The notes under the pieces were generated by a model. The model saw only the letters and a list, made by a program, of their open reading frames with translations. It had not been told where the DNA came from and did no database searches. A DNA stretch of 64,000 nt from Bacteroides gallinarum DSM 18171 = JCM 13658 (GTDB taxonomy: Bacteria; Bacteroidota; Bacteroidia; Bacteroidales; Bacteroidaceae): positions 1 through 64,000 of the forward strand of contig NZ_KB894123.1 of assembly GCF_000374365.1 (NCBI RefSeq), read 5' to 3'. Numbering within the stretch: position 1 is the first letter of the stretch; the number at the start of each line of letters is the position of its first letter. Positions 5,252 to 53,154 of the stretch are shown piece by piece. The position numbers and the translations under genes are program-made.

Positions 5252-5968
5252 ATGAAGTGTATTCATATCATTACTCCTGTAAAGGACTCTTTCGAACTGA
5301 CGCTGCAAACGGCGGAGGCCGTTATGGCATCCGATTTTCAGACGCCGTTTACCTATACCGTGTACAATGATTTCAGCACGGAAGAAAATACGGCAAAGTT
5401 GCAGGAAGCCTCCGAAAAGTTGGGATTCGAACTGGTGAATCTTGCGGAGATTACGGTACACCCCTCTCCGAACTACCTGTTGGTTCTGCAAATGGCACAG
5501 CAGCGTGCTATTGAAGCGGAAGCCGGCCTGATTATCGTAGAGTCGGATGTGATAGTACGGAAAGATACGTTGCAGGCCTTGTTCGACGGAGCGACGGAAA
5601 GGCCGGACTGCGGTATTGCCGCTGCCGTAACGGTAGACGAGAATGGAGACATCAACTATCCCTACCTTTTTGCGAAAGGCAAGGAAAACCGGGTGTTCCC
5701 CGAACAGAAACATTGTAGCTTCTGCTGTTCCCTGCTGACATTGGATTTTCTGAAAGCCTTCGATTTCCACCGGTTAGACCCTGAAAAGAACTGGCATGAT
5801 GTAACTATCTCGCATCAGTCCTTGAAGGAAGGGTTTAAGAACTACCTGTTTACCACATTGCCCGTATGGCATCGTCCTCACGGTAGCCGTCCGTGGAAAC
5901 AACTGAAATATAAGAATCCGCTGAAATATTACTGGTTGAAGTACACGAAAGGACTGGATAAAATCTGA
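5252..5968 (+). CDS. Family 2 glycosyltransferase
   Basis: This 238-residue protein starts with a GT-A nucleotide-binding fold. KCIHIITPVKDS is followed by YNDFSTEENT at about residues 38-47 and by an acidic metal site, VESDVIV, near residue 92. It probably transfers a sugar from a nucleotide donor onto a lipopolysaccharide or related glycan at the inner membrane. The conserved C-terminal segment carries WHDVTISHQSL. It is the first gene of a three-gene operon: the next start lies 1 base past its stop and encodes a Kdo/LPS-type kinase. Donor and acceptor cannot be told from sequence. Confidence 0.85.
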   Translation: MKCIHIITPVKDSFELTLQTAEAVMASDFQTPFTYTVYNDFSTEENTAKLQEASEKLGFELVNLAEITVHPSPNYLLVLQMAQQRAIEAEAGLIIVESDVIVRKDTLQALFDGATERPDCGIAAAVTVDENGDINYPYLFAKGKENRVFPEQKHCSFCCSLLTLDFLKAFDFHRLDPEKNWHDVTISHQSLKEGFKNYLFTTLPVWHRPHGSRPWKQLKYKNPLKYYWLKYTKGLDKI

Positions 5969-5969
5969 T

Positions 5970-6740
5970 ATGGCTATGAAATCTGAAATGAACCGGAAAA
6001 CCGATATTTTTCATCCCCGTACCGTGGTGATTCATCCGGATTTTGAGGCATTGAGAGAGTTTGTCCTCTCTTTGCCGGAGCGCTTCGAACGGAATGAAGG
6101 CATTGTTATCCATAAAGGGCGTAACGAATTGAGGAAAATGGAGTATAACGGAGGGCAATACGTCGTTAAGTCCTTCCACCGTCCCAATCTCATCAACCGT
6201 TTTGTATACGGTATTTTCCGTCCTTCTAAAGCAAAGCGCTCTTACGACCATGCCGGGATGTATCGGGATATAGGAGTGGGAACCCCCGAGCCGGTAGGAT
6301 ATCTCAATGTACGCAGTGGCCTGCTGTTCGACAAGAGCTACTATGTGAGTTGTCTATCGGTATGTCCCTATGTTTATAATGATTTGTTCAAGCAGAAATT
6401 CGAATACGAAGAAGAAGTCTTGCGCGAGATAGGGAGGGTGACTGCCGTTCTTCACGAACATGGCTATGCCCATAAAGACTATGGGCGCGAGAATATCCTA
6501 TTCCGGAAAACGCCGGAAGGAATAAAGCTGGAGATTGTGGATTTGAACCGTATGTTCATCGGAACTATCGGGATGAAAGCCGGCTGCAAGAACTTCGAAC
6601 GTTTGCCCGCTACCCCGCAGATGCACCGTTGGATGGCCGAGGAATATGCGAAAGCCCGTGGCTTCGATGTGGAAAAATGTTTTGAACTTATGGTTGCTTA
6701 TAGAAGTACCCAACCGGGAAAAATCGATAACCTTTATTAA
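5970..6740 (+). CDS. Lipopolysaccharide/Kdo-type kinase
   Basis: This 256-residue protein has a eukaryote-like kinase fold of the Kdo/WaaP family. The catalytic loop HKDYGRENILF lies near residue 170, with Asp as the presumed base. EIVDLNRMF near residue 190 takes the place of the DFG metal site. LRKMEYNGGQYVVKSF carries the ATP-binding lysine at about residue 69. Such enzymes phosphorylate Kdo or core sugars of LPS. The gene sits between two GT2 genes in one operon, which supports a role in core assembly. A second ATG at 5976 is an alternative start. Confidence 0.85.
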   Translation: MAMKSEMNRKTDIFHPRTVVIHPDFEALREFVLSLPERFERNEGIVIHKGRNELRKMEYNGGQYVVKSFHRPNLINRFVYGIFRPSKAKRSYDHAGMYRDIGVGTPEPVGYLNVRSGLLFDKSYYVSCLSVCPYVYNDLFKQKFEYEEEVLREIGRVTAVLHEHGYAHKDYGRENILFRKTPEGIKLEIVDLNRMFIGTIGMKAGCKNFERLPATPQMHRWMAEEYAKARGFDVEKCFELMVAYRSTQPGKIDNLY

Positions 6741-6748
6741 AGATTGCC

Positions 6749-7648
6749 ATGAATATCATAGCCGTAGTCGTTACCTATAATCGGATAGAGCTCTTGAAGC
6801 GTACAGTCCGTTGCCTGCAACAGAATAAGCCGGTTTCCGCTATCGTAGTTGTCAATAATGGAAGTACGGATACTACTGCCGAATGGCTGGAGACGCAATC
6901 GGAGCTTATCGTTATCAACCAGGCGAATGTCGGCGGTTCGGGCGGCTTTTATACGGGTATGCAATACGCATATCAGGCAGGTGCGGACTGGGTATGGTGT
7001 ATGGACGACGATGTTTTTCCGCGTGCCGATTGTCTGGAGCAACTATTGCTCCATGCCGACAGGGAAGACATAGGCATACTTGCACCCCGCCGATTGCAGG
7101 AAGGCAAACTCTTTACCCATGAGTTCCAAGGTTATAATCTAACAAACCCTTTTGCTTCCATGTACACCGGAAAACTATCGAAGCAAACGGTAACCGCTCC
7201 TGTAGAGATACAGGGGGCAGCCTTTGAAGGACCTTTCATACGGCGTGAAGTAATCGGGAAGATAGGTTATCCCAATAAAGAATTATTTATCTTCTGCGAC
7301 GATACGGATTATTGCCTTCGTGCGGTGCAGGCCGGATATAAAATACTGTATGTACCCACGGCATTAATGGATAAGGAAAAATTCTTCTCGAATGACAGTT
7401 GGAGTGTACGGAATAAGAAGAAAAAGTGGAAACGTTTCTATCAGATACGTAATTCCACTTACCTGAACCACCATTATGGCCGTAACTGGGCAGTAAAGTA
7501 CCTTCGCGGATTTAATGGAGTGGCAGGTTATATCCTGACTGCTCTTGTTACTTGCCCGTTTACCGATGCCTATCAGTGGGGCGATATTCCGAAATTATGG
7601 AAAGCCTATCGCGACGGCATACGCGAACGGCTGGGCATTATGAAGTAG
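6749..7648 (+). CDS. Family 2 glycosyltransferase, rhamnosyl/galactofuranosyl-transferase-like
   Basis: This 299-residue GT-A enzyme begins MNIIAVVVTYNR with the nucleotide site VVNNGSTD near residue 37. The metal motif WCMDDDVFP lies near residue 87, and the acceptor-side motif FCDDTDYCLR is at about 188. This layout is typical of the GlfT2/rhamnosyltransferase branch of GT2. A galactofuranosyl role would agree with the glf gene at 15.5-16.7 kb but is only inference. It starts 8 bases after the kinase gene and ends the operon, converging on the next gene. Confidence 0.87.
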   Translation: MNIIAVVVTYNRIELLKRTVRCLQQNKPVSAIVVVNNGSTDTTAEWLETQSELIVINQANVGGSGGFYTGMQYAYQAGADWVWCMDDDVFPRADCLEQLLLHADREDIGILAPRRLQEGKLFTHEFQGYNLTNPFASMYTGKLSKQTVTAPVEIQGAAFEGPFIRREVIGKIGYPNKELFIFCDDTDYCLRAVQAGYKILYVPTALMDKEKFFSNDSWSVRNKKKKWKRFYQIRNSTYLNHHYGRNWAVKYLRGFNGVAGYILTALVTCPFTDAYQWGDIPKLWKAYRDGIRERLGIMK

Positions 7649-7670: not shown

Positions 7671-8849
7671 CTATTCCTCCACTAATTTTATCCATTCCTT
7701 TATTATGGTGTCAATGGTAAACCGTTTGCTGCTTTCAATGGCATTGGCCGCCATGGATTTGCGCAATTTATCATCTGTCATTAGCCGTTTGATTTGTTTG
7801 ATATACATCGGAATATCATTATTGGGGATGATGAATCCGTTGTCCTCACTTGTTATTATATTTTTCAATGATGCAAAGCTGTTGAAGGCCAGAGGAACGC
7901 AGCCGCATTGTTGTGCTTCAGTTAATGTCAGCGCCCACCCTTCAAAGGAGGAGGTCATCATAAATATGGAGGCTTCATTGTAATAAGGTTCCGAATTCTT
8001 TGCTCCTTCAAAAAAAACGCGGCTCAGGTTATGATGTCTGACAAAGTCTTTATATTGGCTTTCCATTTTCCCATGGCCTACAATTCTTAATTTCCAATCG
8101 GATAAGCTGCTGTCGGCTTCAATCTCTTTCCATATTTTTAAAGCTATGGAAACTCTTTTAGGTTCTTCCTCCAATCTGGACACAATGAGTACTTCTTTCT
8201 TTTTGCGCCCGTAGTTTGCCATATCATAAAAAGATTGGAATGAGAGGGCATTGTGAATTATTCTAATTTTGCTATCCTCTTTTAGACGGGCATATTTTAG
8301 AAAGTCGTTTTTGAAGTGCCCGGATAAGAGGACTACTTTGTCTGAAAAAGTATATGACTCTTTATATAGGACGGGTAGCTTTATGAGTTTTCTCATTTTT
8401 TGGTATGGGAAAGATGCGAATTTTCTGATATTCTTCCATATGTTCTTTCCCTCTTTGAGCTCTTTCTTAGGGTTGTCCAAAGTAATAAAGTTGACTTCAG
8501 CGGCAGGTTTGGTGTGAAGTGCAAATATCAGTTTACACTCTTTTCTATTCGATTGGCTTAAGGCTATCTTCAGGTGTTTGGTTAGTTTATGTTCCCCCTG
8601 GTTGATAATGACATCAATCTTGTTCTGCTCTATGAACTGAATTAACCGGGTGAGTTTATGGTAAGATGTGATTTTGATTGTATCGACGAATTGTTGTTTC
8701 TCAAATGAACTGTCAATGTCATATTTATAAGCTGAATAACAGTTTGCATTATAAAATGTGGTTAATGCATCTGCTATATTGGCTGTTATTCTTTCAACTC
8801 CTCCATATTGTGGAGCTACTTCATTGACAGTATAAAATAAAATATTCAT
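7671..8849 (-). CDS. Family 4 glycosyltransferase
   Basis: This 392-residue GT-B protein has an N-terminal domain with an acceptor loop, PQYGGVERITANIADAL. A C-terminal GT1-type domain from about residue 210 carries VLIVSRLEEEPKRV, and its EX7E motif is in SSFEGWALTLTEAQQ near residue 320. It is a retaining transferase predicted to act on the cytoplasmic side of the membrane. It is the last gene of the left glycosyltransferase operon, whose only obvious promoter is the invertible segment at 11.5-11.7 kb. The gene is clearly AT-rich compared with the fabF or nusA regions, suggesting transfer. Confidence 0.88.
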   Translation of the reverse strand: MNILFYTVNEVAPQYGGVERITANIADALTTFYNANCYSAYKYDIDSSFEKQQFVDTIKITSYHKLTRLIQFIEQNKIDVIINQGEHKLTKHLKIALSQSNRKECKLIFALHTKPAAEVNFITLDNPKKELKEGKNIWKNIRKFASFPYQKMRKLIKLPVLYKESYTFSDKVVLLSGHFKNDFLKYARLKEDSKIRIIHNALSFQSFYDMANYGRKKKEVLIVSRLEEEPKRVSIALKIWKEIEADSSLSDWKLRIVGHGKMESQYKDFVRHHNLSRVFFEGAKNSEPYYNEASIFMMTSSFEGWALTLTEAQQCGCVPLAFNSFASLKNIITSEDNGFIIPNNDIPMYIKQIKRLMTDDKLRKSMAANAIESSKRFTIDTIIKEWIKLVEE

Positions 8850-8857
8850 TACGTTCG

Positions 8858-9742
8858 TTATTTTGAATATGATTTCTGTATTTCATGAACCACCTGCATT
8901 TGTTTGGAGTGAAACTTCCGGGCGAAAATCTTGTTGGAGCCGGCGAGTTTTTTATAATCGGCATTTTGCCATATGTAGGGATTCCCATGCTCCCAGTCAA
9001 TGTCTCGCATGCAGCCTGTGTCGGCATCATTTATGCAGTACATCTTTTCCCGGAAAGGAGAGTTCCACAAGAGGGTTTGGATAAATATTTCGTCTGCGCA
9101 AAGCGTGTACCTCATCCGTTTCAATATAATGCTCTTGTATTGCAGCAGATATCTGACGGCATTTTCAGTGATGCTCACCCATTGTCCTCCTTTTTTGAAC
9201 TCAAATGTTGTCTTTCTGCGGTAGTTGCTTATTTTATGGAGGGCTAAAACGATATTTCGGAGAAATGCGGTGATTCCATGCAACAGGTTTCCTTTATTTT
9301 TCAGTTTTTGTGTGAAAAAATAATATCGGAATACTTTACGCTCCAAATCCCGTTGGTGGGCTGCATCTTGCCAAAAGCCGACAAACTCTTTTCCTGAATT
9401 TTTATAAAAGAATTCATGAATGTAGTCTTGGCTCTTGATAGGAAGGTCTACTCCTGACAGTAAGTGATAATAGGCATAAGGCCCGTTTCTCAGAGCAGTC
9501 TCGAACAAGAGATATTCCACTTTTACTAAACTGATGTCTCCCCAATACACCTTCATATTTTTTTCGATGAGATAGAAACCGGCTTTCTTTATCTTGAATC
9601 TTTTAATTTTTTGATATAGGTTCACTGCTCGTTTGTCGATATGCAGATAGATATCGTTGCGTTCGTCGTCTAACATAGAAAGCAATACTTCGAGTATCGG
9701 ATATTCGTTGTGGGCGATAATCAGAAAGGCGTGTTTCATCAT
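8858..9742 (-). CDS. Core-2/I-branching type glycosyltransferase (GT14)
   Basis: This 294-residue protein begins with KHAFLIIAHNEYPILEVLLSM and has IYLHIDKRA near residue 35. Both are typical of the Branch family (GT14), which includes beta-1,6-GlcNAc and xylosyl transferases. LLSGVDLPIKS near residue 95 is the other family hallmark. It probably adds a branch sugar to a surface glycan. The start codon overlaps the end of the preceding GT2 gene by 4 bases, so the two are translationally coupled. A double Met leaves the start uncertain by one codon. Confidence 0.85.
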   Translation of the reverse strand: MMKHAFLIIAHNEYPILEVLLSMLDDERNDIYLHIDKRAVNLYQKIKRFKIKKAGFYLIEKNMKVYWGDISLVKVEYLLFETALRNGPYAYYHLLSGVDLPIKSQDYIHEFFYKNSGKEFVGFWQDAAHQRDLERKVFRYYFFTQKLKNKGNLLHGITAFLRNIVLALHKISNYRRKTTFEFKKGGQWVSITENAVRYLLQYKSIILKRMRYTLCADEIFIQTLLWNSPFREKMYCINDADTGCMRDIDWEHGNPYIWQNADYKKLAGSNKIFARKFHSKQMQVVHEIQKSYSK

Positions 9743-10653
9743 TGGTGTATGTTTAGTTCTTTAAAGACATCCGGAATGGTTGTGTCCGGAATGATAAACT
9801 GCTCCTCACACAGCGCTTTATAAAAGGATGTCCCGATAACCCGGTCATACTCCGATTCAAGTTTTCCTTCTTTGTATAATTTGTAAAAGTACCTCCAATG
9901 ACGACCTCCATGTCTGCCTTTATGCTGTTCTAGTTGTTTGCCCCCATTTATCATCTTTTCTAGGAATTGTTGTTTCCCGCGTATGTTATAATGGTATATA
10001 CGTATACTACTGTCTGCGGATAGTTTGGGAAACATGGTAACTTTATGGTTTCCCATAGAGATTTGCAGATAGCCGGCGCTTCGATGAATGACTTTTTTGT
10101 TCTGTCGTTCGAATATGGAATAGGTAGACAAATCGTAGCGTTCCGGTTCATTGACAGGTTTCACAACTTTATCCCATTGCCAGAAAGGCTTGTTCTCTTC
10201 CGGATAAACGCTTCTCATTTCACAATTCAATACGTTGGCACGGGTGGCCGACAGGTCTGTTTTAAGATTACCGGAGGGAGAGTACCACAACTCGTCGGCA
10301 TCGGCATTGATGAGCCAATCGGCTTTGTAGATAGTTTTGGCTTTCCAAATCATCCGGTCTACCCATTCTTTTTGTTCATAGTCTGTTGCTTTCTCCTCAA
10401 TGACTTCCTTTATCCACCCTTTTTGTTTATATTTTCGGATAATGTCAGGAGTAGAGTCGGTGGAATTATTGTCTGTAATGATAAAGCCGTCCACACCCAT
10501 TGCTTTGTGAAACAATAAGTTCTCCTCCAGCATGTTTTCCTCGTTTTTCACCAATAAGGTCATTATTAATTGTGAGGGAGGGGCCTTGCGGAATGTTTTG
10601 AAACTTTCCACAAGAGCTAAACTTATTTTCTTTATAAGGTAAGTATTTATCAT
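9739..10653 (-). CDS. GT2-type (Glyco_tranf_2_4) glycosyltransferase
   Basis: This 304-residue protein has LIMTLLVKNEENMLEENLLFH near residue 30, DGFIITDNNSTDSTPD near 54 and the metal motif NADADELWY near 115. This pattern fits the Glyco_tranf_2_4 branch related to GT92. A predicted amphipathic N-terminus precedes it. It is the second gene of the left operon, 14 bases after the fucosyltransferase-like gene and overlapping the next gene by 4 bases. Substrate is unknown. Confidence 0.83.
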   Translation of the reverse strand: MINTYLIKKISLALVESFKTFRKAPPSQLIMTLLVKNEENMLEENLLFHKAMGVDGFIITDNNSTDSTPDIIRKYKQKGWIKEVIEEKATDYEQKEWVDRMIWKAKTIYKADWLINADADELWYSPSGNLKTDLSATRANVLNCEMRSVYPEENKPFWQWDKVVKPVNEPERYDLSTYSIFERQNKKVIHRSAGYLQISMGNHKVTMFPKLSADSSIRIYHYNIRGKQQFLEKMINGGKQLEQHKGRHGGRHWRYFYKLYKEGKLESEYDRVIGTSFYKALCEEQFIIPDTTIPDVFKELNIHQ

Positions 10654-10667
10654 CGCGATGTATGTAA

Positions 10668-11513
10668 TCAGTTAATAGGTACTTTTATCCAACCGGCAGG
10701 ATAGATGTTGGGCGTTTCACAATGTTGAAACCAGCGTTCAGGCATAATCACCGTCTTATTTTCTTTGGGGTTCAACCATGCTCCCCACCAACTGAATGTA
10801 CTGTTACAAATGATGTGATGACGGCAATGACTCATCAGCATCATATCCTGCCAACTTTCCACTCCTTTATTCCAATCAATGAAGACGGCTTGTGGCAACG
10901 GTAGGTTTTCCTTTACCCAGGCTATGTCATCCGAAAAAACATAATAGAAAGGTTGTTCTATCCGTCTGTTCATTTCGGCAATAGCATTGATGTAATAGGG
11001 TAGTTGGCACACGCTGCCTGTTGTTTTCCAGTGTTTGGGCTCTAAATAATCTCCCCGGCGGACGTGTAGTGAAACGGCATGTTCATTATGCTCTATTTGC
11101 TTTAGCATTGTTTGGGTCTTTTCATTGAATAGCCCTGAGTTGAATGTAAAGGCTTTTCGTATGTCGTTTTCCATGTCGGCAAAGAACCTTTCCGACTGAT
11201 AGAAGCCTTTAAAATATAGCAAAGGCCAAAAGTATTTTTTATCGAATGGGAGGAGGTTTGACGAGTCCTGTTTACGTTCATATATTTTCTTGAAGAAAAG
11301 AAATTCTATAACCTTTTTTAGAGGTTGGTTGATACAGAATTCTGTTTTGGGAAGATTGAACACGTGATGCATTTCATAGCCATGGTGGACGTTGTAATGC
11401 ATCATGTCGGACAAATCAATCCGAGTGTTTGTATGACGTTTTTTCATTCGTAGATAGAAAGCATAGATAAACATTTGGTTTCCTAAGCCGCCTGTCATTT
11501 TAATCAGTCTCAT
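10668..11513 (-). CDS. Family 11 glycosyltransferase, alpha-1,2-fucosyltransferase-like
   Basis: The 281-residue protein has the GT11 hallmarks. MTGGLGNQMFIYAF is at the N-terminus, SLHVRRGDYL (GDP-fucose-binding HxRRGDY) lies near residue 140, and CNSTFSWWGAWLN near residue 238. Members move L-fucose from GDP-fucose to galactose in an alpha-1,2 linkage. It is the first gene of the left operon, and its ATG lies only 16 bases from the left inverted repeat of the invertible promoter. In the present orientation no promoter was found reading into it. Confidence 0.9.
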   Translation of the reverse strand: MRLIKMTGGLGNQMFIYAFYLRMKKRHTNTRIDLSDMMHYNVHHGYEMHHVFNLPKTEFCINQPLKKVIEFLFFKKIYERKQDSSNLLPFDKKYFWPLLYFKGFYQSERFFADMENDIRKAFTFNSGLFNEKTQTMLKQIEHNEHAVSLHVRRGDYLEPKHWKTTGSVCQLPYYINAIAEMNRRIEQPFYYVFSDDIAWVKENLPLPQAVFIDWNKGVESWQDMMLMSHCRHHIICNSTFSWWGAWLNPKENKTVIMPERWFQHCETPNIYPAGWIKVPIN

Positions 11514-11529
11514 ATGTCTGTTTTTAAGG

Positions 11530-11563
11530 AATAGTGTTTTTTAAACGTTCGTTTAAAAAACAC
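11530..11563. repeat. Left inverted repeat of the invertible promoter
   Basis: This 34-base arm is the exact reverse complement of 11709-11742. Each arm is itself nearly palindromic around a core AAACGTTCGTTT. From memory the core resembles the sites inverted by the Mpi serine recombinase in Bacteroides fragilis capsule promoters. The two arms enclose 145 bases. Confidence 0.9.
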
Positions 11564-11701
11564 CTCTCAGAGCCTTCGTATAGGAAGAGCATTTGTTTAT
11601 ATTTATAACTATTCGGAAATCAGATATTATCAGATTAATACGTTTTTATCAATGGATATGAAAAAACGAGTAACAATATTTTTTATATAAGAAATTACTC
11701 C

Positions 11702-11709
11702 TATCTTTG
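11702..11709 (+). promoter_or_regulatory. -7 element inside the invertible segment, present orientation rightward
   Basis: TATCTTTG is a perfect TAnnTTTG element. Its last base is the first base of the right inverted repeat, so transcription begins inside the repeat. The leader to ATG 11766 is about 50 bases. No matching element was found on the minus strand of the segment. Confidence 0.65.
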
Positions 11710-11742
11710 TGTTTTTTAAACGAACGTTTAAAAAACACTATT
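11709..11742. repeat. Right inverted repeat of the invertible promoter
   Basis: Exact reverse complement of 11530-11563 over 34 bases. It ends 23 bases before the first gene of the right operon. Confidence 0.9.
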
Positions 11743-11765
11743 TATTGCCTATAAAACAATATTAA

Positions 11766-12785
11766 ATGAGTGATAGTCTGTTGTATAAGCTTCGTAGCGG
11801 TAAACCATCAAAAGCATTCTTTTTTCTGAAAGGGTATCTGAAGCGGTGTATACCTGATTGTTTTTTCAGTATGCGGAGAAAGAGCTGTTTGGAGCAAGTA
11901 GAAATGCGGCCTGATAAGGATTACATTTATGAACGGGTGAACTATTACAATAAGTTGCAGCATCCGGTAATACTGCCGGAACAGGTTTTGCACGAACATA
12001 AACATAGTCATTATGTATATTTGGATAAGATAAAAAACTTTCGTCCTTCTACTTTTCACAAAGCATATTATTTCGATTTGCAGGATGTTGCCCGTTGGTT
12101 CAATCAGAATCTGCGTATAAGTTATATCCCCGGCGACGTATATTTTACCCCTGAATATCCCTCGATAGTGAAAAGCCGGTTATTAAAAGATGATAACGCT
12201 TATTCCGTGGTACTGAAGCTGGACAAACTGCGCCATTTTATTTTCCTAAATGACCCTGTGCCCTTCTCGGAAAAACGTAATCAGGCCGTCTTTCGTGGCA
12301 AAATCCGCCTTAGCCGTATTCGCGAAAGATTCCTTCGGATGTATTTTGGCTCTGCCATTTGCGACTGCGGCGTTGTAGGTAAGAATGAAGGCTATCCGGA
12401 AGAATGGATGACTCCTAAAAAGACAATCCGCGAGCACCTTGATTATAAATTCATTATGGCCTTGGAGGGAAATGATGTAGCCTCTAATCTGAAATGGGTA
12501 ATGTCCTCCAATTCTATTGCCGTGATGACTCGCCCCACTTGCGAAACCTGGTTTATGGAAGGAAAATTGATTCCCGACTACCATTACATAGAAATAAAGG
12601 ACGACCTGTCCGATTTGGAACAGAAACTGACTTATTATATCAATCATCCTGCGGAAGCAGAGCAGATTGTCCGGCATGCACACGAGTATGTAGCCCAGTT
12701 CTTCGATACGGAGCGTGAACGGTTGATTTCGTTGCTTGTGATGAATAAGTATTTTCAAATGACGGGTCAAAATAACAATAAATAA
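11766..12785 (+). CDS. Glycosyltransferase family 90 (CAP10/LpsA-like)
   Basis: This 339-residue protein shows the CAP10/GT90 pattern. RNQAVFRGKIRLSR lies near residue 177, and the C-terminal donor-site stretch HLDYKFIMALEGND near 230 leads to SSNSIAVMTRPTCETWF and LIPDYHYIEIKDDLSDL. Relatives add xylose, glucose or similar sugars to LPS core or capsule. It is the first gene of the right operon, downstream of the invertible promoter in its present on-state. A weak RBS and a leader largely made of the repeat arm are notable. Confidence 0.83.
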   Translation: MSDSLLYKLRSGKPSKAFFFLKGYLKRCIPDCFFSMRRKSCLEQVEMRPDKDYIYERVNYYNKLQHPVILPEQVLHEHKHSHYVYLDKIKNFRPSTFHKAYYFDLQDVARWFNQNLRISYIPGDVYFTPEYPSIVKSRLLKDDNAYSVVLKLDKLRHFIFLNDPVPFSEKRNQAVFRGKIRLSRIRERFLRMYFGSAICDCGVVGKNEGYPEEWMTPKKTIREHLDYKFIMALEGNDVASNLKWVMSSNSIAVMTRPTCETWFMEGKLIPDYHYIEIKDDLSDLEQKLTYYINHPAEAEQIVRHAHEYVAQFFDTERERLISLLVMNKYFQMTGQNNNK

Positions 12786-12794
12786 AAACCTTTT

Positions 12795-13709
12795 ATGATT
12801 CATATAGCTTGCAATATTGATGCTAATTTTACGCAACATTGTGCTGTTATGTTAGTTTCCTTGTTCGAAAATAATAAAACTGCTGATATTTGCGTACATA
12901 TTGTAGCTCCGAATTTGCCGGAGAAGGCTCAGGATATATTGAAGTCTTTGGCTGCTTCTTACGACAATGAAGTCCATTTCTATTTTCCTTCGCCGGAGTT
13001 GTTGGCTAACTTCTCTATCAAGAAGTTCGGCAAACGTATTTCCATGGCTACTTATTATCGTTGTATGTTTTCTGCAATTCTGCCTGCAACGGTAGATAAG
13101 GTATTGTATCTGGATTGTGATATTGTCATTTTGGGAGACATCTCGGATTTTTGGAATACAGACCTTACAGGTTATGCAGTAGGGTGTGTAGAAGATATAG
13201 GATACGATGATATGGAACGTTACGATACTTTAAAGTACGACCCTAAATATTCTTATTTTAATGCAGGCGTGTTATTGATTAACCTGAAATATTGGAGAGA
13301 ACATAAAGTAGACGAGCAATGTATCCAGTATTTCTTGGCCTACCCTGAAAGAATCCGTTATAACGACCAGGACCTGTTAAATGCCCTTTTGCACGAGCAT
13401 AAGCTATTTGTATCTCTAAGGTGGAATATGCAGGATGCCTTCTATCGGTATGGTATGGAAAAGAAAATAGAACATTGGCCGACGTTAAAGCAAGATTTGC
13501 AGAATCCGGTTATACTGCATTATACCAATAAGAAACCTTGGAATTATGATAGTATGCATCCGTTACGGAAAGAATATTATACGTATTTAGATATGACACC
13601 CTGGAAAGGCAAGCGTCCTTTGTTGTCTTTGAAGAATTGTTTTTTGCGGTTTGTCAAGTTACTTCCGTATGTATTGAAATTGCGTAAGCCTAAGTATATG
13701 AAATTATAA
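12795..13709 (+). CDS. Family 8 glycosyltransferase
   Basis: This 304-residue retaining GT-A enzyme begins with MIHIACNIDANFTQH. The metal-binding DxD is in VLYLDCDIVILGDI near residue 110, with YFNAGVLLINLKYW near 155 and ILHYTNKKPW near 235. These are classic GT8 (WaaI/WaaJ-type LPS glucosyl/galactosyltransferase) motifs. It starts 9 bases after the GT90 gene and is in the same switchable operon. It probably extends an LPS or O-glycan chain. The exact sugar is not known. Confidence 0.92.
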   Translation: MIHIACNIDANFTQHCAVMLVSLFENNKTADICVHIVAPNLPEKAQDILKSLAASYDNEVHFYFPSPELLANFSIKKFGKRISMATYYRCMFSAILPATVDKVLYLDCDIVILGDISDFWNTDLTGYAVGCVEDIGYDDMERYDTLKYDPKYSYFNAGVLLINLKYWREHKVDEQCIQYFLAYPERIRYNDQDLLNALLHEHKLFVSLRWNMQDAFYRYGMEKKIEHWPTLKQDLQNPVILHYTNKKPWNYDSMHPLRKEYYTYLDMTPWKGKRPLLSLKNCFLRFVKLLPYVLKLRKPKYMKL

Positions 13710-13718
13710 TTTGAAGAA

Positions 13719-14618
13719 ATGAGTAATTTTCCGATACGGCAATCTAAGACCAAACGTTTTTTTAAACGTATAGAGAGATTTATTGTTTCCTGCAAACAAT
13801 ATGTAATCGTACACCATTTATTATCTCATGGCGGTAAGAAAGTTATCGCTGAATACGAACATTCTTCGTTGGAAAATTGTGAGAGGATTACCGAAACGTC
13901 TCCTATCTGGATTTGTTGGTGGCAAGGTGAGGAAACTATGCCGGACATTGTGAAAGCTTGTTACAAGTCTGTCTTGGCACATGCCGATAATCATCCGGTT
14001 ATACTGATAACCGAAAATGATTATCGGGAATATGTTACTTTACCGGATTGTATTTTGCAGAAATGGAAAGCGGGAAAAATAACTTTAACCCACTTATCCG
14101 ATATATTACGTATGCTATTGCTGAAAGCCTATGGAGGAATTTGGATGGATAGTACGGTATTGCTCCCCTCTAAGAATATCGGTGAGTTTATCGACCCTTC
14201 TAAAATATTCTGGAGCTGTCATCATTTGCCTATTTATTATAATATCTCAAGAGGCGGGTGGACCGGTTTCTTTTTGGCATGCGGCAAAGGAAATCTATTG
14301 CCGGCATTCATTTCAGATATGTTTTTGACATATTGGCAAAGTCATAACAAGTTGATAGAATATCTATTAATCGATTACACTTTTGCTATAGCCCGCGCCA
14401 ATGTGCCGGCTATACATCAGATGATTGAAGAAGTACCGATAACGGTTATGGGGCCTCTTGGCAAGTGTTTGAATCAAGAATACACAGAAAAACGGTGGAA
14501 TGAGTTCTGCTCTGATTACGATTTCCATAAATTAACCTACAAGATACCATTATCTCTCACAACTCCGGAAGGAAAAAAGACCTTCTACGGACATATTATT
14601 GAAACTTATTTAAGGTGA
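13719..14618 (+). CDS. Capsular polysaccharide synthesis-type glycosyltransferase (GT32-like)
   Basis: This 299-residue protein has SPIWICWWQGEETMPDIV near residue 62, HLSDILRMLLLKAYGG near 126 and WMDSTVLLPS near 143. This is the Caps_synth (PF05704) / GT32-like pattern with a DxD-like MDST motif. It follows the GT8 gene by 9 bases. The family usually adds sugars to capsule or LPS outer chains. A basic N-terminus (KTKRFFKRIERF) may associate with the membrane. Confidence 0.85.
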   Translation: MSNFPIRQSKTKRFFKRIERFIVSCKQYVIVHHLLSHGGKKVIAEYEHSSLENCERITETSPIWICWWQGEETMPDIVKACYKSVLAHADNHPVILITENDYREYVTLPDCILQKWKAGKITLTHLSDILRMLLLKAYGGIWMDSTVLLPSKNIGEFIDPSKIFWSCHHLPIYYNISRGGWTGFFLACGKGNLLPAFISDMFLTYWQSHNKLIEYLLIDYTFAIARANVPAIHQMIEEVPITVMGPLGKCLNQEYTEKRWNEFCSDYDFHKLTYKIPLSLTTPEGKKTFYGHIIETYLR

Positions 14619-14636
14619 AATAGCTTTAATACATAT

Positions 14637-15554
14637 ATGACCTATATTATACATGCTGATTATCAGCCCCTGAATTATATTATTTCAGGAATTAATAGTT
14701 CCCAAATAAAAGAAATTTGTTTAAAAGATGTCGGAGATACATTGTTCTTACGTTGTGCCCGCGGTTTTTTTCGGCGAGTAGGGTTGTTTTGGTTTTTTCG
14801 CAGTCTGTATATCAAAGGTGAATCATTGAAACAAATCTCTCTTATTGAAGAAAATACGAGAGTCATTATTATTGATAACAGGCATCTTGTAGACTTACGT
14901 ATTATCGATAAAATATTGCCTTCTTCTGTGGAACGGAATCTTTTCTATTGGACTCCGATTTGCCAACTTTTTCATCGGTATACTCCTGAGAAGCGAAGTA
15001 AATATATGAAAGCAATCAGTAAAATGTACCGGATAAGTAGTTTTAATGCGGACGATGCAAATATTTATCCTGAGATTACGGTAAAGCCGCCCTTTTTCAG
15101 GTTTCCCAATGAAAGCGAATCAGCCTCTGATATAAAGCAAGGATTGTACTTTATCGGTTATGAAAAAAATCGTTTGAATGTTCTATTGAAGTACAAGGCT
15201 TCATTTGAAAAGTTGGGGTTGCAGTGCTCCTTTCTGATATTCAAAAGGAAAGCAAAGGGCATATCTTATCTTGAAAATATACGGAATGTAAGCCATTGCA
15301 GTTGTGTTGTCGATATAACCGCAGGACAAGCAGGTATCTCCTTAAGACCTTTAGAAGCTTTATTCTTTGATAAGAAACTAATAACGAACAACAAAAGTAT
15401 CAAAGAATACTCTTTCTATCATCCCAGTAATATCTTTGTACTGGAAGAAGATAATTTGAATGACTTACCGGCATTTGTTAATGCTCCGGTGTCTGTAATA
15501 AGTAAGAATATAAAAGAGGAGTTTGATATAAATACTTGGATACTTAACTATTAG
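14637..15554 (+). CDS. Putative glycosyltransferase, family not recognised
   Basis: The 305-residue product is not one I can place. A basic patch with aromatic residues (FFRRVGLFWFFRSLY) near 45-59 may contact the membrane. A C-terminal part with GLYFIGYEKNRL near 180 and ITAGQAGISLRPLEALFF near 240 resembles the donor domain of GT-B transferases. It is the last gene of the right, switchable operon, 18 bases after the Caps_synth gene. Context favours a glycan role. Its last 11 bases overlap glf on the opposite strand. The gene is AT-rich, suggesting transfer. Confidence 0.6.
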   Translation: MTYIIHADYQPLNYIISGINSSQIKEICLKDVGDTLFLRCARGFFRRVGLFWFFRSLYIKGESLKQISLIEENTRVIIIDNRHLVDLRIIDKILPSSVERNLFYWTPICQLFHRYTPEKRSKYMKAISKMYRISSFNADDANIYPEITVKPPFFRFPNESESASDIKQGLYFIGYEKNRLNVLLKYKASFEKLGLQCSFLIFKRKAKGISYLENIRNVSHCSCVVDITAGQAGISLRPLEALFFDKKLITNNKSIKEYSFYHPSNIFVLEEDNLNDLPAFVNAPVSVISKNIKEEFDINTWILNY

Positions 15555-16665
15555 TACGGTTAACCTCTTTTTCCCACAATCCCAGTGCCGCCGCCACCGT
15601 ATCATCCATATCCGCATAGGTATATTGTGCCAGCCTGCCACCGAATAACACCTTCTCCTGCTGCTGTGCCAGCTCCTGATAACGATTGAAAATCCGGGTA
15701 TTTTTCTCGTCGTTTACCGGGTAGTAAGGTTCTTTCCCCTGTTCGAAATCATCGGGATACTCGTAAGTGATGACGGTAGAAGGTTGCTTGCCGAACTCGA
15801 AGTGCTTGTGCTCGATGACACGGGTATAAGGAGTCTCGCGGTCGGTATAGTTTACAACAGCATTGCCTTGGAAATCTTCCACGTCCGCCAGATGCCTGTG
15901 CTCGAACCGTAGGCTGCGATACTCCAGATGTCCGCATGTATAATCGAAATATTCGTCTATACAACCGGTGTAGAGCACCTTTTCTGCCAAAGGCTCCAAT
16001 TCCTTGCGATACTCTGTATAATCGATTCCGGTACGGACCTCGATACCTTCCAGTAAAGCGCCGATTAAACGGTTATAACCTCCTATGGGAATACCCTGGA
16101 ACGAATCGTTGAAGTAATTGTTGTCGAAGATAAAGCGGAACGGAATGCGCTTGATGATAAATGCCGGCAGTTCCGTTGCCGGGCGTCCCCATTGTTTCTC
16201 CGTATATCCCTTTATCAGTTGCCGGTAAATATCTTCCCCGCAGAGTTTCAATGCCTGTTCTTCCAGGTTTTGCGGGTCGGTTATATGCTCGTACTTCCGA
16301 CACTGCTCCTGTATCTTCGCTTTGGCTTCCGCCGGAGTACGCACTCCCCACAACTGGTAGAAAGTATTCATATTGAAAGGCAGGTTGTATAACTTTCCTT
16401 TGTAGTTGGCAATCGGAGAATTGGTGTACCTGTTGAACTCTACAAGACGGTTCACATACTCCCATACCTCCTTATTGTCGGTATGAAAAATATGAGCACC
16501 GTATTTATGTACATTGATACCGCTTATCTCCTCGCAGTAGATGTTGCCGCCGGTGTGAGGGCGCTTTTCTATCACAAGGCATCTTTTACCGGCTTTATGA
16601 GCTTCGTGGGCAAATACAGCTCCGAACAGGCCGCTGCCCACAATCAGGTAATCGTATGGTTTCAT
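15544..16665 (-). CDS. glf: UDP-galactopyranose mutase
   Basis: This FAD enzyme interconverts UDP-galactopyranose and UDP-galactofuranose, the donor for Galf in surface glycans. The 373 residues match the family. An FAD-binding motif VGSGLFGAVFAHEA is at residues 8-21. HKYGAHIFHTDNKEVW near 53-68 and KGYTEKQWGRPATELP near 150 are conserved substrate-site segments. The presence of glf predicts that at least one nearby transferase uses Galf. The gene is convergent with the right operon and lies downstream of a gene remnant on its own strand. Confidence 0.95.
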   Translation of the reverse strand: MKPYDYLIVGSGLFGAVFAHEAHKAGKRCLVIEKRPHTGGNIYCEEISGINVHKYGAHIFHTDNKEVWEYVNRLVEFNRYTNSPIANYKGKLYNLPFNMNTFYQLWGVRTPAEAKAKIQEQCRKYEHITDPQNLEEQALKLCGEDIYRQLIKGYTEKQWGRPATELPAFIIKRIPFRFIFDNNYFNDSFQGIPIGGYNRLIGALLEGIEVRTGIDYTEYRKELEPLAEKVLYTGCIDEYFDYTCGHLEYRSLRFEHRHLADVEDFQGNAVVNYTDRETPYTRVIEHKHFEFGKQPSTVITYEYPDDFEQGKEPYYPVNDEKNTRIFNRYQELAQQQEKVLFGGRLAQYTYADMDDTVAAALGLWEKEVNRTNS

Positions 16666-16912: not shown

Positions 16913-17053
16913 CTATCATTTGCCATAGGCAATATTTGCAATTCGGACTACAAAGCTACACAATTATTGCCAAGATAACGAAAAAACTGCCATTATCGTG
17001 TTGGGTTTGATAAAAATATCTGTTCCGCATTTTATTCTCCCCTTGGTTTGTGC

Positions 17054-17061
17054 TATCTTTG
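17054..17061 (+). promoter_or_regulatory. -7 element upstream of msbA
   Basis: TATCTTTG is a perfect TAnnTTTG element, 38 bases before ATG 17100. It shows that translation from upstream ATG or TTG codons at about 16998 is unlikely. Confidence 0.5.
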
Positions 17062-17099
17062 TCCCCAATACACAATGTAATGAATTAACTGCTGACCGA

Positions 17100-18938
17100 A
17101 TGAAAGAATTCCTCCGACTCCTGCGGCGTTTTGTTCCGCCCTACAAGAAATATCTGATATGGGCCTTATTCCTGAACTTGCTATCGGCAATCCTGAATAT
17201 ATTCTCCTTCGCCCTGATTATCCCTATCCTTCAGATACTTTTCAAAATGGATACCAAGACCTACGAGTTTATCCCTTGGAATACCGTGGGAGTGGGACTG
17301 GAAGATATAGTGGTCAATAACTTCTATTACTACGTTACCGAGCTGATAGCCTCGCAAGGTGGTTCGTTGACCCTGCTGATTCTGGGCATATTCCTGGCGG
17401 GGATGACCCTGCTGAAAGCCTTCTCCTATTTCGCTTCTTCGGCGGTGATGATTCCACTCCGTACGGGCGTGGTACGCGATATCCGCGCACAGGTCTATAA
17501 TAAAGTGCTGCACTTGCCGCTGAGCTTCTTCTCCGAAGAACGGAAAGGTGATATTATTGCCCGCATGAGCGGTGACGTTACCGAGGTGGAAACATCCGTA
17601 ACCAGCTCGCTGGATATGCTGATAAAGAACCCGATACTGATTATAGCCTATTTCGGCACGCTGATAGCTATCAGTTGGCAACTCACGCTGTTCACGTTGC
17701 TGGTACTCCCGGGCATGGGCTGGGTAATGGGTACGGTGGGCAAGAAGCTGAAAAGGCAGTCGCTGGAAGCACAGGCAAAGTGGAGCGACACCATGTCCCA
17801 ACTGGAAGAAACCCTGGGCGGATTGCGCATCATCAAAGCCTTTATTGCCGAGAGCAAGATGCTGGAACGCTTCAACAAGTGCAGCAACGAGTACCGCGAC
17901 GCTATCAACCGGGTAGCCACCCGCCAGGCATTGGCACATCCCATGAGCGAGTTCCTGGGCACATGCGTCATCGTTATCGTGCTATGGTTCGGCGGTACGC
18001 TGATTCTCAGCAACAGCGCCACTATCGACGCCCCCTCGTTTATCTACTACCTGGTGATACTGTACAGTGTTATCAACCCGCTGAAAGAATTTTCCAAGGC
18101 CGGATACAACATACCCAAAGGACTTGCCTCCATGGAACGTATCGACAAGATACTCTTTGCAGAAAACCCTATCAAGGAGCCTGCCCGGCCGAAACCACTC
18201 TCCTCGCTGAATGACAAGGTAGAATTCAAGGACATCAGTTTCAGCTACGACGGTTCGCGCCAGGTGCTGAAACATATCAACCTGACCGTACCCAAAGGCA
18301 AGACTATCGCACTGGTAGGGCAGTCCGGTTCCGGCAAATCGACGCTGGTAGACCTGCTGCCCCGCTATCACGACGTACAGTCGGGCGAGATACGGATAGA
18401 CGGATTGAACATTAAGGATATGCGCATCTCGGACCTGCGCGGCCTGATAGGAAACGTCAACCAGGAAGCTATCCTTTTCAATGACACTTTCTTCAATAAC
18501 ATAGCCTTCGGTGTGGAGAACGCCACCATGGAGCAGGTTATCGAAGCCGCCAAGATAGCCAACGCCCACGATTTCATCATGGATACCGAGAAAGGCTACG
18601 ACACCAATATCGGCGACCGCGGCGGCAAGCTCTCCGGCGGACAACGCCAGCGCATCAGCATTGCCCGCGCCATTCTTAAGAACCCGCCCATACTGATTCT
18701 GGACGAGGCCACCTCCGCGCTCGATACGGAGTCGGAACGCCTGGTGCAGGAAGCTTTGGAACGGCTGATGAAAACCCGCACCACTATCGCCATTGCACAC
18801 CGTCTTTCCACTATCAAGAATGCGGATGAAATCTGCGTGCTCTACGAGGGAGAAATCGTGGAGCGGGGCAAGCACGAGGAACTGCTCGCCAAAGACGGTT
18901 ACTATAAGAAACTGAATGATATGCAGTCTTTGGCATAA
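17100..18938 (+). CDS. msbA: MsbA-like lipid A/glycolipid ABC exporter
   Basis: This 612-residue half-transporter has about six membrane helices in residues 20-330. A nucleotide-binding domain follows, with Walker A GQSGSGKST near 408, signature LSGGQRQRIS near 512, Walker B ILILDEATSALD near 534 and the H-loop AIAHRLSTI. Such dimers flip lipid A-core or other lipids across the inner membrane. Its place beside the glycan genes supports that role. I chose ATG 17100 (MKEFLRLLRRFVPPYKK) because a promoter -7 lies at 17054; the longer frame from 16998 begins upstream of it. Confidence 0.88.
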   Translation: MKEFLRLLRRFVPPYKKYLIWALFLNLLSAILNIFSFALIIPILQILFKMDTKTYEFIPWNTVGVGLEDIVVNNFYYYVTELIASQGGSLTLLILGIFLAGMTLLKAFSYFASSAVMIPLRTGVVRDIRAQVYNKVLHLPLSFFSEERKGDIIARMSGDVTEVETSVTSSLDMLIKNPILIIAYFGTLIAISWQLTLFTLLVLPGMGWVMGTVGKKLKRQSLEAQAKWSDTMSQLEETLGGLRIIKAFIAESKMLERFNKCSNEYRDAINRVATRQALAHPMSEFLGTCVIVIVLWFGGTLILSNSATIDAPSFIYYLVILYSVINPLKEFSKAGYNIPKGLASMERIDKILFAENPIKEPARPKPLSSLNDKVEFKDISFSYDGSRQVLKHINLTVPKGKTIALVGQSGSGKSTLVDLLPRYHDVQSGEIRIDGLNIKDMRISDLRGLIGNVNQEAILFNDTFFNNIAFGVENATMEQVIEAAKIANAHDFIMDTEKGYDTNIGDRGGKLSGGQRQRISIARAILKNPPILILDEATSALDTESERLVQEALERLMKTRTTIAIAHRLSTIKNADEICVLYEGEIVERGKHEELLAKDGYYKKLNDMQSLA

Positions 18939-25626: not shown

Positions 25627-25791
25627 ACGGAGGGTACAGAGTTTTTCACCACAGAGCACACGGAGTTTCACAGAATTTTTTTCTTTTTTACTTTGTGGTA
25701 TGGAGGGCACAGAGCTTTTCACCACAGAAGGCACGGAGTTTCACAAAGTCTTTTTTACTTTGTACTACGGAGTACACAGAGTTTTGCAGAG
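25627..25791. repeat. Degenerate tandem repeats (CACAGAG/CACGGAGTTTCAC)
   Basis: A unit of about 70-74 bases beginning GGAGGG(T/C)ACAGAG occurs at 25627 and 25701, with a third partial copy at about 25770. Reverse-oriented pieces (CTCTGTGCCCTCTGTGGTG) follow near 25876. Such sequences look like the dispersed intergenic repeats of Bacteroides. Confidence 0.65.
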
Positions 25792-25921
25792 GTAATGAAA
25801 CAAAGCAGTAATGAAGTAAGTAAAGTAATTATATACCAATCTGTGTTAATCCAGTGTAATCTGTGGTGAAAAACTCTGTGCCCTCTGTGGTGAAACCTGA
25901 GCCAGTGAACCCGCTGATACA

Positions 25922-52726: not shown

Positions 52727-53154
52727 TTGAATAAGTTTTTTAAGGTTAATATTTTTTTGTTTTTCACACCGCTAAATTAAACGATATTAATAAGGATTGC
52801 TAATAAAGCTTATCTACACACACCCTACAAATAGAGTGTTTTTACTCTTTTGTAATCTACACGGTTGTTTTTAAGTCGTTGATATATAGTGTTCTATTTG
52901 TGTGTTACTATCTACAGGATAGAATATCCTGCCGCGTAGTATATTTTAAGGATGCAGGAGGCGGGGAATATCCCACGGTTATGTAAAGCTCAATCCGTTA
53001 GACAGCCGTTATCTGTTCGTTAGACAGTTGTTTAACGAACGGGCAACAACTGTCTAACGAACAGATAACGGCTGTCTGACGAATTAAATGCGGTAAGCCG
53101 GGGCGGTAATGGATAGAGCCTTCCTTCTTATTATTCCTACGAAAAAGGATAATC
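52727..53154. other. Gap between the TPR-HTH gene and susC
   Basis: The 428 bases contain the susC leader, a possible weak promoter (52772-52779) and a 32-bp perfect inverted repeat (53001-53076). No gene was found. Confidence 0.6.
53001..53076. repeat. 32-bp perfect inverted repeat upstream of susC
   Basis: Arms 53001-53032 and 53045-53076 are exact complements around a 12-base loop, and pair further outward with two G-T type mismatches. Each arm also contains internal repeats of CGTTAGACAG/CTGTCTAACG. It has no T-run on either strand and lies about 275 bases upstream of susC. Confidence 0.85.

Follow-up and report, generated by a model that had tools for sequence, protein, structure and literature searches.

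A putative Mpi-type invertible promoter between two glycosyltransferase operons of a lipooligosaccharide-like cluster in Bacteroides gallinarum

The question raised by this locus is whether a single promoter, enclosed by inverted repeats and lying between two divergent glycosyltransferase operons, could be turned to serve either one operon or the other, or whether it simply switches one of them on and off. Descriptions of phase variation in Bacteroides mostly concern capsules, outer-membrane proteins, and restriction systems, as set out in the accessible text of PMC12632263. The DNA analysed here, a stretch of 64 kb referred to as the window, was searched for the anatomy of the element and compared with related genomes in which its arms, its promoter, and the first genes on both sides could be followed.

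The element and its surroundings

The arms of the element are exact inverted repeats of 34 bp, 100% complementary and 145 bp apart, and the whole element, arms included, measures 213 bp (Table 1). They form the longest exact inverted repeat with a spacing of 60-600 bp in the 64-kb window and lie far above chance, since inverted repeats reach 13 bp at most across 30 first-order Markov windows. Each arm contains a palindrome of 30 bp whose sole asymmetry is its 2-bp centre, TT on the left and AA on the right. The site of a serine invertase is expected to be a palindrome asymmetric only at its centre, and crossover would presumably take place, in the left arm, at the central TT. The two arms are mutually inverted and agree with the Mpi core consensus ARACGTTCGTN, as quoted in the available text of PMC8375218. 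Elsewhere in the window, a very strong intergenic hairpin at 53000-53077 consists of an exact inverted repeat of 33 bp with 12 bases in its loop, and an exact 20-bp inverted repeat with about 200 bp between its arms occupies 25636-25879; Rfam and tRNA scans of the 64-kb window gave no matches.

Between the arms, TATCTTTG is the only TAnnTTTG on either strand; it faces the GT90 operon, and its last base is the first base of the right palindrome. When positions 11500-11780 were scanned for the Bacteroides promoter TTTG-N19..21-TAnnTTTG, with up to two mismatches in the two TTTG blocks, this promoter was the top match (TTTT, 19-bp spacer, one mismatch), a weaker plus-strand match with two mismatches appeared at 11598, and the minus strand, which faces GT11, gave none. 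An E. coli-type sigma-70 scan returned a minus-strand match inside the segment (11652-11624, 9/12) facing GT11, in a scan that performs at chance level (23 sites vs 25.6, sd 6.0, in shuffles).

On both sides, four-gene operons begin close to the element, the left one (ATG at 11513) 16 bases beyond the left arm and the right one (ATG at 11766) 23 bases beyond the right arm. All eight operon proteins belong to glycosyltransferase or Caps_synth families according to profile searches. At their far ends both operons meet convergent genes: 22 bp separate the left one from the GT2 gene, and the right one shares its last 11 bp with the end of the UDP-galactopyranose mutase gene. Sense transcription cannot enter either operon from these neighbours, and both operons begin at the segment only. 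The anatomy given by the first-pass annotation is thus borne out: its exact 34-bp repeats around 145 bases are right to the base, its single promoter at 11702-11709 is the only motif of its kind between the arms on either strand, its likening of the repeat core to B. fragilis Mpi sites agrees with the consensus, its operon starts 23 and 16 bases outside the arms agree with the gene coordinates, and its glycosyltransferase families are matched by the profiles, with the fourth right gene falling into NF053598.

None of the eight operon proteins is an UpxY, a flippase, or a polymerase, and the first genes encode GT11 and GT90, so that the operons are unlike the usual capsule locus. Moreover, an LPS kinase and glycosyltransferases are clustered together, as in a Bacteroides LOS cluster, and, judged by gene content, the surroundings look like a lipooligosaccharide (LOS) cluster and not a capsule locus, a point that the first-pass annotation does not make.

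Table 1. Features of the element, of the two flanking operons, and of the neighbouring genes (window positions)
Feature	Position	Strand	Remarks
LOS-like core genes	5252..7648	+	three genes
238-aa protein	5252-5968	+	LOS-like core; no Pfam match
Kdo/WaaP-type kinase	5970-6740	+	LOS-like core
GT2	6749-7648	+	LOS-like core; convergent with left operon
Left operon gene 4, GT4	7671..8849	-	PF00534
Left operon gene 3, Core-2/I-branching (GT14-type)	8858..9742	-	PF02485
Left operon gene 2, GT2/GT92-like	9739..10653	-	PF13704 + PF01697
Left operon gene 1, GT11 (fucosyltransferase-like family)	10668..11513	-	PF01531
Left arm	11530..11563	+	palindrome 11534-11563, central TT 11548-11549
Segment between arms	11564..11708	+	145 bp
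Weak -33 element TTTT	11679-11682	+	19 bp upstream of TATCTTTG
Promoter -7 element TATCTTTG	11702..11709	+	motif scan
Right arm	11709..11742	+	palindrome 11709-11738, central AA 11723-11724
Right operon gene 1, GT90	11766..12785	+	PF05686
Right operon gene 2, GT8	12795..13709	+	PF01501
Right operon gene 3, Caps_synth	13719..14618	+	PF05704
Right operon gene 4, WaaS/CpsH-family glycosyltransferase	14637..15554	+	NF053598 (NCBIfam), no Pfam match
UDP-galactopyranose mutase	15544..16665	-	TIGR00031; convergent with right operon
MsbA-like ABC transporter	16998..18938	+	best TIGR02203, 508 bits, under cut-off 602

The switch and the head-to-head layout in related genomes

Among 158 genomes of the genus, the GT11-GT90 region can be aligned near full length in four, namely the window genome (G000), G010, G152, and G077, the last with a broken GT11 frame; with the window genome as reference, the segment between the arms is 84% identical in G010 and 62-66% identical in G077 and G152. 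The same head-to-head layout occurs in B. fragilis S82 and Q1F2 (GT11 45% identical, GT90 65%), where the arms are of the form TTAAACGTACGTTTAA, and in Paraprevotella clara, P. xylaniphila, and an uncultured Paraprevotella (GT11 60-62%, GT90 59-62%), where they begin with TCTCTT and are unrelated to the other arm kinds. In all, an arm-flanked promoter stands amid head-to-head GT11 and GT90 genes in nine genomes that comprise three GT11 lineages and three arm kinds: Mpi-type, ACGTACGT-type (B. fragilis S82 and Q1F2), and TCTCTT-type (Paraprevotella). In a tenth genome, Paraprevotella AH.8_14 (G360), the GT11 contig starts within a switch of this sort, and the GT90 contig, which ends a few codons into GT90, is not joinable to it.

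Arm pairs of these kinds also adjoin other genes. The corresponding LOS-like cluster of B. cutis has an Mpi-type switch (L068:12384-12597) between other head-to-head sets; on one side these encode a 288-aa protein along with an amine-oxidase-like protein and an acyltransferase, on the other a 328-aa protein, and GT11 lies outside. The Paraprevotella genomes hold additional TCTCTT-type pairs, one of which adjoins a frame that by eye is UpxY-like. In P. clara and P. xylaniphila (L182/L179), a TCTCTT-type switch in identical orientation separates two head-to-head genes whose products measure 328 aa and 194/205 aa, possibly another two-way case. A single genome of the genus, G087 (L150, L155, L157-L160), contains six Mpi-type pairs, of which five measure exactly 202 bp and the sixth 208 bp.

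The presence of a switch was then counted against gene layout. GT90 lies head-to-head within 300 bp of GT11 at six of the 37 GT11 loci from named genomes, and all six have an arm-flanked promoter, while none adjoins GT11 at the 29 uncut named loci that lack a head-to-head GT90 (0/29; L078 and L092, with 180 and 199 bp of upstream sequence, were left out of this no-switch count). At 14 of these 29, by a mechanical count, GT11 starts at most 50 bp after the end of a same-strand reading frame. In a family sample of 399 genomes, seven combine a GT11 of at least 50% identity with a GT90 of at least 57%, both counted as close; five of the seven have the switch (G000, G152, G203, G240, and G347), and G360 is cut within it. 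In G472, a single cluster contains GT11 and GT90, which are not head-to-head and are accompanied by neither arms nor a switch; G384 has GT11 plus a more distant GT90 (46%) on a separate contig. Arms are absent from the five genomes in which GT90 is head-to-head with GT8 (G034, G081, G263, G491, and G512).

Seen from the GT90 side, a mismatch-tolerant arm scan covered 25 upstream regions of 30 loci (L211-L215 were left out; 200 shuffled upstream regions scored up to 12) and found arms in 5/5 regions with a head-to-head GT11 versus 1/20 without. The lone exception is G255 (L222), where GT90 has 21-bp arms with one mismatch and there is no GT11 match; the adjoining upstream sequence, judged by eye, resembles a transposase end. 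These arms speak against reading a 12-bp exact match in G255 as a decayed switch, and G255 counts as an arm-bearing locus that lacks GT11. In G061, a repeat of 23 bp ahead of GT90 was rejected, its spacer being CACTTCAC-rich with no TAnnTTTG between the arms. Short exact inverted matches (10-14 bp) close to other GT11 or GT90 genes were not counted as switches; among them, the 14-bp match of L075 encloses TAGATTTG yet is 867-1190 bp away from GT11. The GT90 set of G007 is preceded by a core GT2 gene on the same strand; it has a TATCTTTG of its own and lacks arms. The Paraprevotella genome G269 has no GT11 match at E 1e-40 and shows by eye one intact-looking arm and a second that is gapped where G255 has sequence, so that its switch would be fixed towards GT90. 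A lone GT11 or GT90 set is usually fixed and not switched.

Because the arm-flanked promoter tracks the head-to-head layout in these counts, they support a promoter that serves both sets. Two observations stand against it: G472 keeps both sets without a switch, and G255 has a switch without GT11, the latter weakening this reading slightly.

On a GT11 tree of 39 rows, nine are marked as carrying the switch (G077 was left out for its broken frame, and L092 was marked although the contig end truncates its switch). These nine rows occupy three positions on the tree, each characterised by a distinct arm kind, and well-supported branches force three changes, a number that none of 500 label shuffles came down to (mean 8.2). 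The three changes may represent one gain and two losses, which would require arm replacement.

Invertase, orientation, and inversion

The window genome encodes an intact Mpi-family invertase (G000:C23:27555-28142; NF009949, 290 bits vs a cut-off of 272). A second Mpi-like copy (L028, G000:C3:37200-37775), 53% identical to the intact one, was rejected as an enzyme for its two in-frame stops, and serine recombinases on contigs C81 and C52 score far under the Mpi cut-off. The latter (L029/L030) are different recombinases with seemingly identical neighbours (324-aa and 533-aa frames with identical starts), which may reflect a mobile element present twice, with its recombinase genes swapped. All seven other Bacteroides tested, including the switch-less G007, have an Mpi orthologue (78-96% identity); of three Paraprevotella genomes, one has a 46% relative and the other two have none at E 1e-20.

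Further complete Mpi-type site pairs of the window genome lie at capsule loci on C8 and C19, and a lone site copy lies at the extreme end of contig C21. The promoter on C8 points towards UpxY (NF033644), with a second, weaker TAnnTTTG in the opposite direction, and that on C19 points away from an UpxY-like frame identified by eye in translation; thus, Mpi-type sites occur in both positions within this genome. The placement of the promoter beside an arm is common to the window element, C8, and C19. A single-site pattern with one mismatch is unspecific alone (8 places vs 7 for a backwards control), a 20-base site pattern gave 6 matches vs 0 in the control, and a paired-site pattern gave 0 control matches across 158 genomes; a 25-base arm pattern had no exact copy in viral contigs.

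At the nine comparable GT11-GT90 loci, the promoter faces GT90 without exception (9/9). The first-pass annotation had proposed a single orientation among relatives as evidence against a switch; we take this outcome as a caution and not a refutation, since the nine represent three lineages with near relatives within each and thus indicate a bias and not a lock. The GT90-facing position may be a resting state. In what is accessible of PMC4747536 and PMC3090145, one position of a real switch can exceed 98%: the IVp-I ON fraction in an inoculum was 1.03% (PMC4747536), and all three of three B. fragilis genomes had the large-capsule promoter OFF (PMC3090145).

Movement can be followed at other loci. 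When B. fragilis S82 is compared with Q1F2, another ACGTACGT-type site has collinear flanks (98%) around a reversed middle of 236 bp (94%), and between P. clara and P. xylaniphila a second TCTCTT-type site has collinear flanks (88-90%) around a reversed middle of 175 bp (87%). Both arm kinds therefore invert, and both belong to genomes that carry the GT11-GT90 switch. The GT11-GT90 locus itself is collinear throughout in these two pairs, and no genome pair displays inversion of Mpi-type arms at this locus. Inversion of Mpi-type arms draws its support from the literature and from the two positions at C8 and C19.

The uniform orientation is also what would be seen if the switch were immobile, stuck towards GT90 with its arms left over, and the broken GT11 frame of G077, as if the set were out of use, and the G269 switch without one arm agree with this. 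We regard it as quite unlikely: the arms are the best-kept part of the element (between the window genome and G010, the left arm is 100% identical and the promoter 99%, versus 84% for the DNA between), the invertase is intact in the window genome, and real switches can rest almost entirely in one position, as the reports cited above indicate. It is far less probable still that the arms are hairpins or regulator binding sites instead of recombination sites. Each does hold a 30-bp palindrome, and a terminator scan marks 11709-11738, the right one; against this, the motif is published as an Mpi site in the available text of PMC8375218. The asymmetric centres are, moreover, mutually inverted, as inversion requires, and the other two arm kinds of the layout belong to sites that invert.

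Known switches and a two-way reading

In the Hin switch of Salmonella flagella, a serine invertase moves a promoter and one of two surface antigens results, the second antigen being shut off through a repressor that the switched operon encodes. In the window element, by contrast, the promoter itself would serve either operon. As described in the accessible parts of PMC8375218, PMC3090145, and PMC12632263, the Mpi capsule promoters of B. fragilis and their B. intestinalis equivalents are alike in arm consensus, in a promoter at the arm, in an element of ~0.2 kb, and in an Mpi-family invertase in the genome, and transcripts of the B. intestinalis capsule switches start within the proximal arm (PMC8375218). 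They differ from the window element, which has complete gene sets on both sides, no initial UpxY/UpxZ, and an LOS-like cluster around it. The LOS cluster BT3362-BT3380 of B. thetaiotaomicron likewise combines an LPS kinase with many glycosyltransferases, whereas the accessible text of its paper makes no mention of inversion (PMC5850320). The IVp promoters of B. fragilis, in the available text of PMC4747536, are similarly invertible, serve surface genes, and have a strongly biased resting orientation; they differ in their tyrosine recombinase and in leaving an adjoining groES/EL operon uncontrolled.

The last point bears on a one-way switch, which would turn the GT90 set on and off while the GT11 set is always transcribed from a promoter outside the consensus scan. 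IVp-II is an invertible promoter that adjoins groES/EL and leaves it unaffected (PMC4747536, as far as its accessible text goes), so a gene set past the other arm is not always controlled. The orientation towards GT90 at 9/9 loci, the E. coli-type match on the minus strand of the segment, and the G255 switch upstream of GT90 without GT11 also fit such a one-way arrangement. However, we consider it unlikely, since just 16 bp separate the left arm from the GT11 start codon, no TAnnTTTG faces GT11 within 150 bp upstream at the six named switch loci, and the E. coli-type scan runs at chance level. Moreover, an independent GT11 promoter would leave unexplained why GT11 and GT90 stand head-to-head around arms in three lineages.

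By every tested feature except inversion at the locus, the sequence of the element is that of an Mpi-type invertible promoter. Its likely function is that of a two-way selector of LOS glycoforms, in which a single promoter serves either glycosyltransferase set by inversion; of this reading, we infer inversion here, Mpi as its agent, exclusive transcription, and an LOS product. The Mpi-family serine invertase encoded on C23 would act on the two palindromic arms and turn the 213-bp element. In the orientation as read, the promoter would drive the GT90-GT8-Caps_synth-WaaS set, and in the inverted orientation the GT11-GT2-GT14-GT4 set, so that each cell would finish its LOS oligosaccharide in one of two ways. 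Since both sets start only at the segment and end against convergent genes, one would be expressed at the cost of the other. The two-way switch that the first-pass annotation had proposed thus gains from the Mpi-type anatomy, from operons that start only at the segment, and from nine genomes with three arm kinds, and it is held back by a promoter that faces GT90 in all nine.

What is new is the place and the logic of the element, namely a lone promoter with a complete glycosyltransferase set on each side, inside an LOS-like cluster; within the accessible portions of the open-licence literature, no LOS locus of Bacteroides with a two-way invertible promoter was found, and earlier notice elsewhere is possible. 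The recurrence of the layout with different flip sites suggests that making one set or the other, and not both, is useful. A broader and more tentative reading, to which we give somewhat less credence than to its contrary, is that the GT11 and GT90 sets are alternative LOS finishes under pressure to be made one at a time, and that an exclusive selector was therefore built at least three times in Bacteroidaceae lineages with different recombination systems (Mpi-type, ACGTACGT-type, and, in Paraprevotella, an unrelated one), letting a single clone present two possible LOS coats to immunity or phages. LOS structures are reported per strain and, if this is true, the structure or immune readout of one culture may describe one of two states. 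It would also become testable whether the two glycan sets are incompatible and what selects between them.
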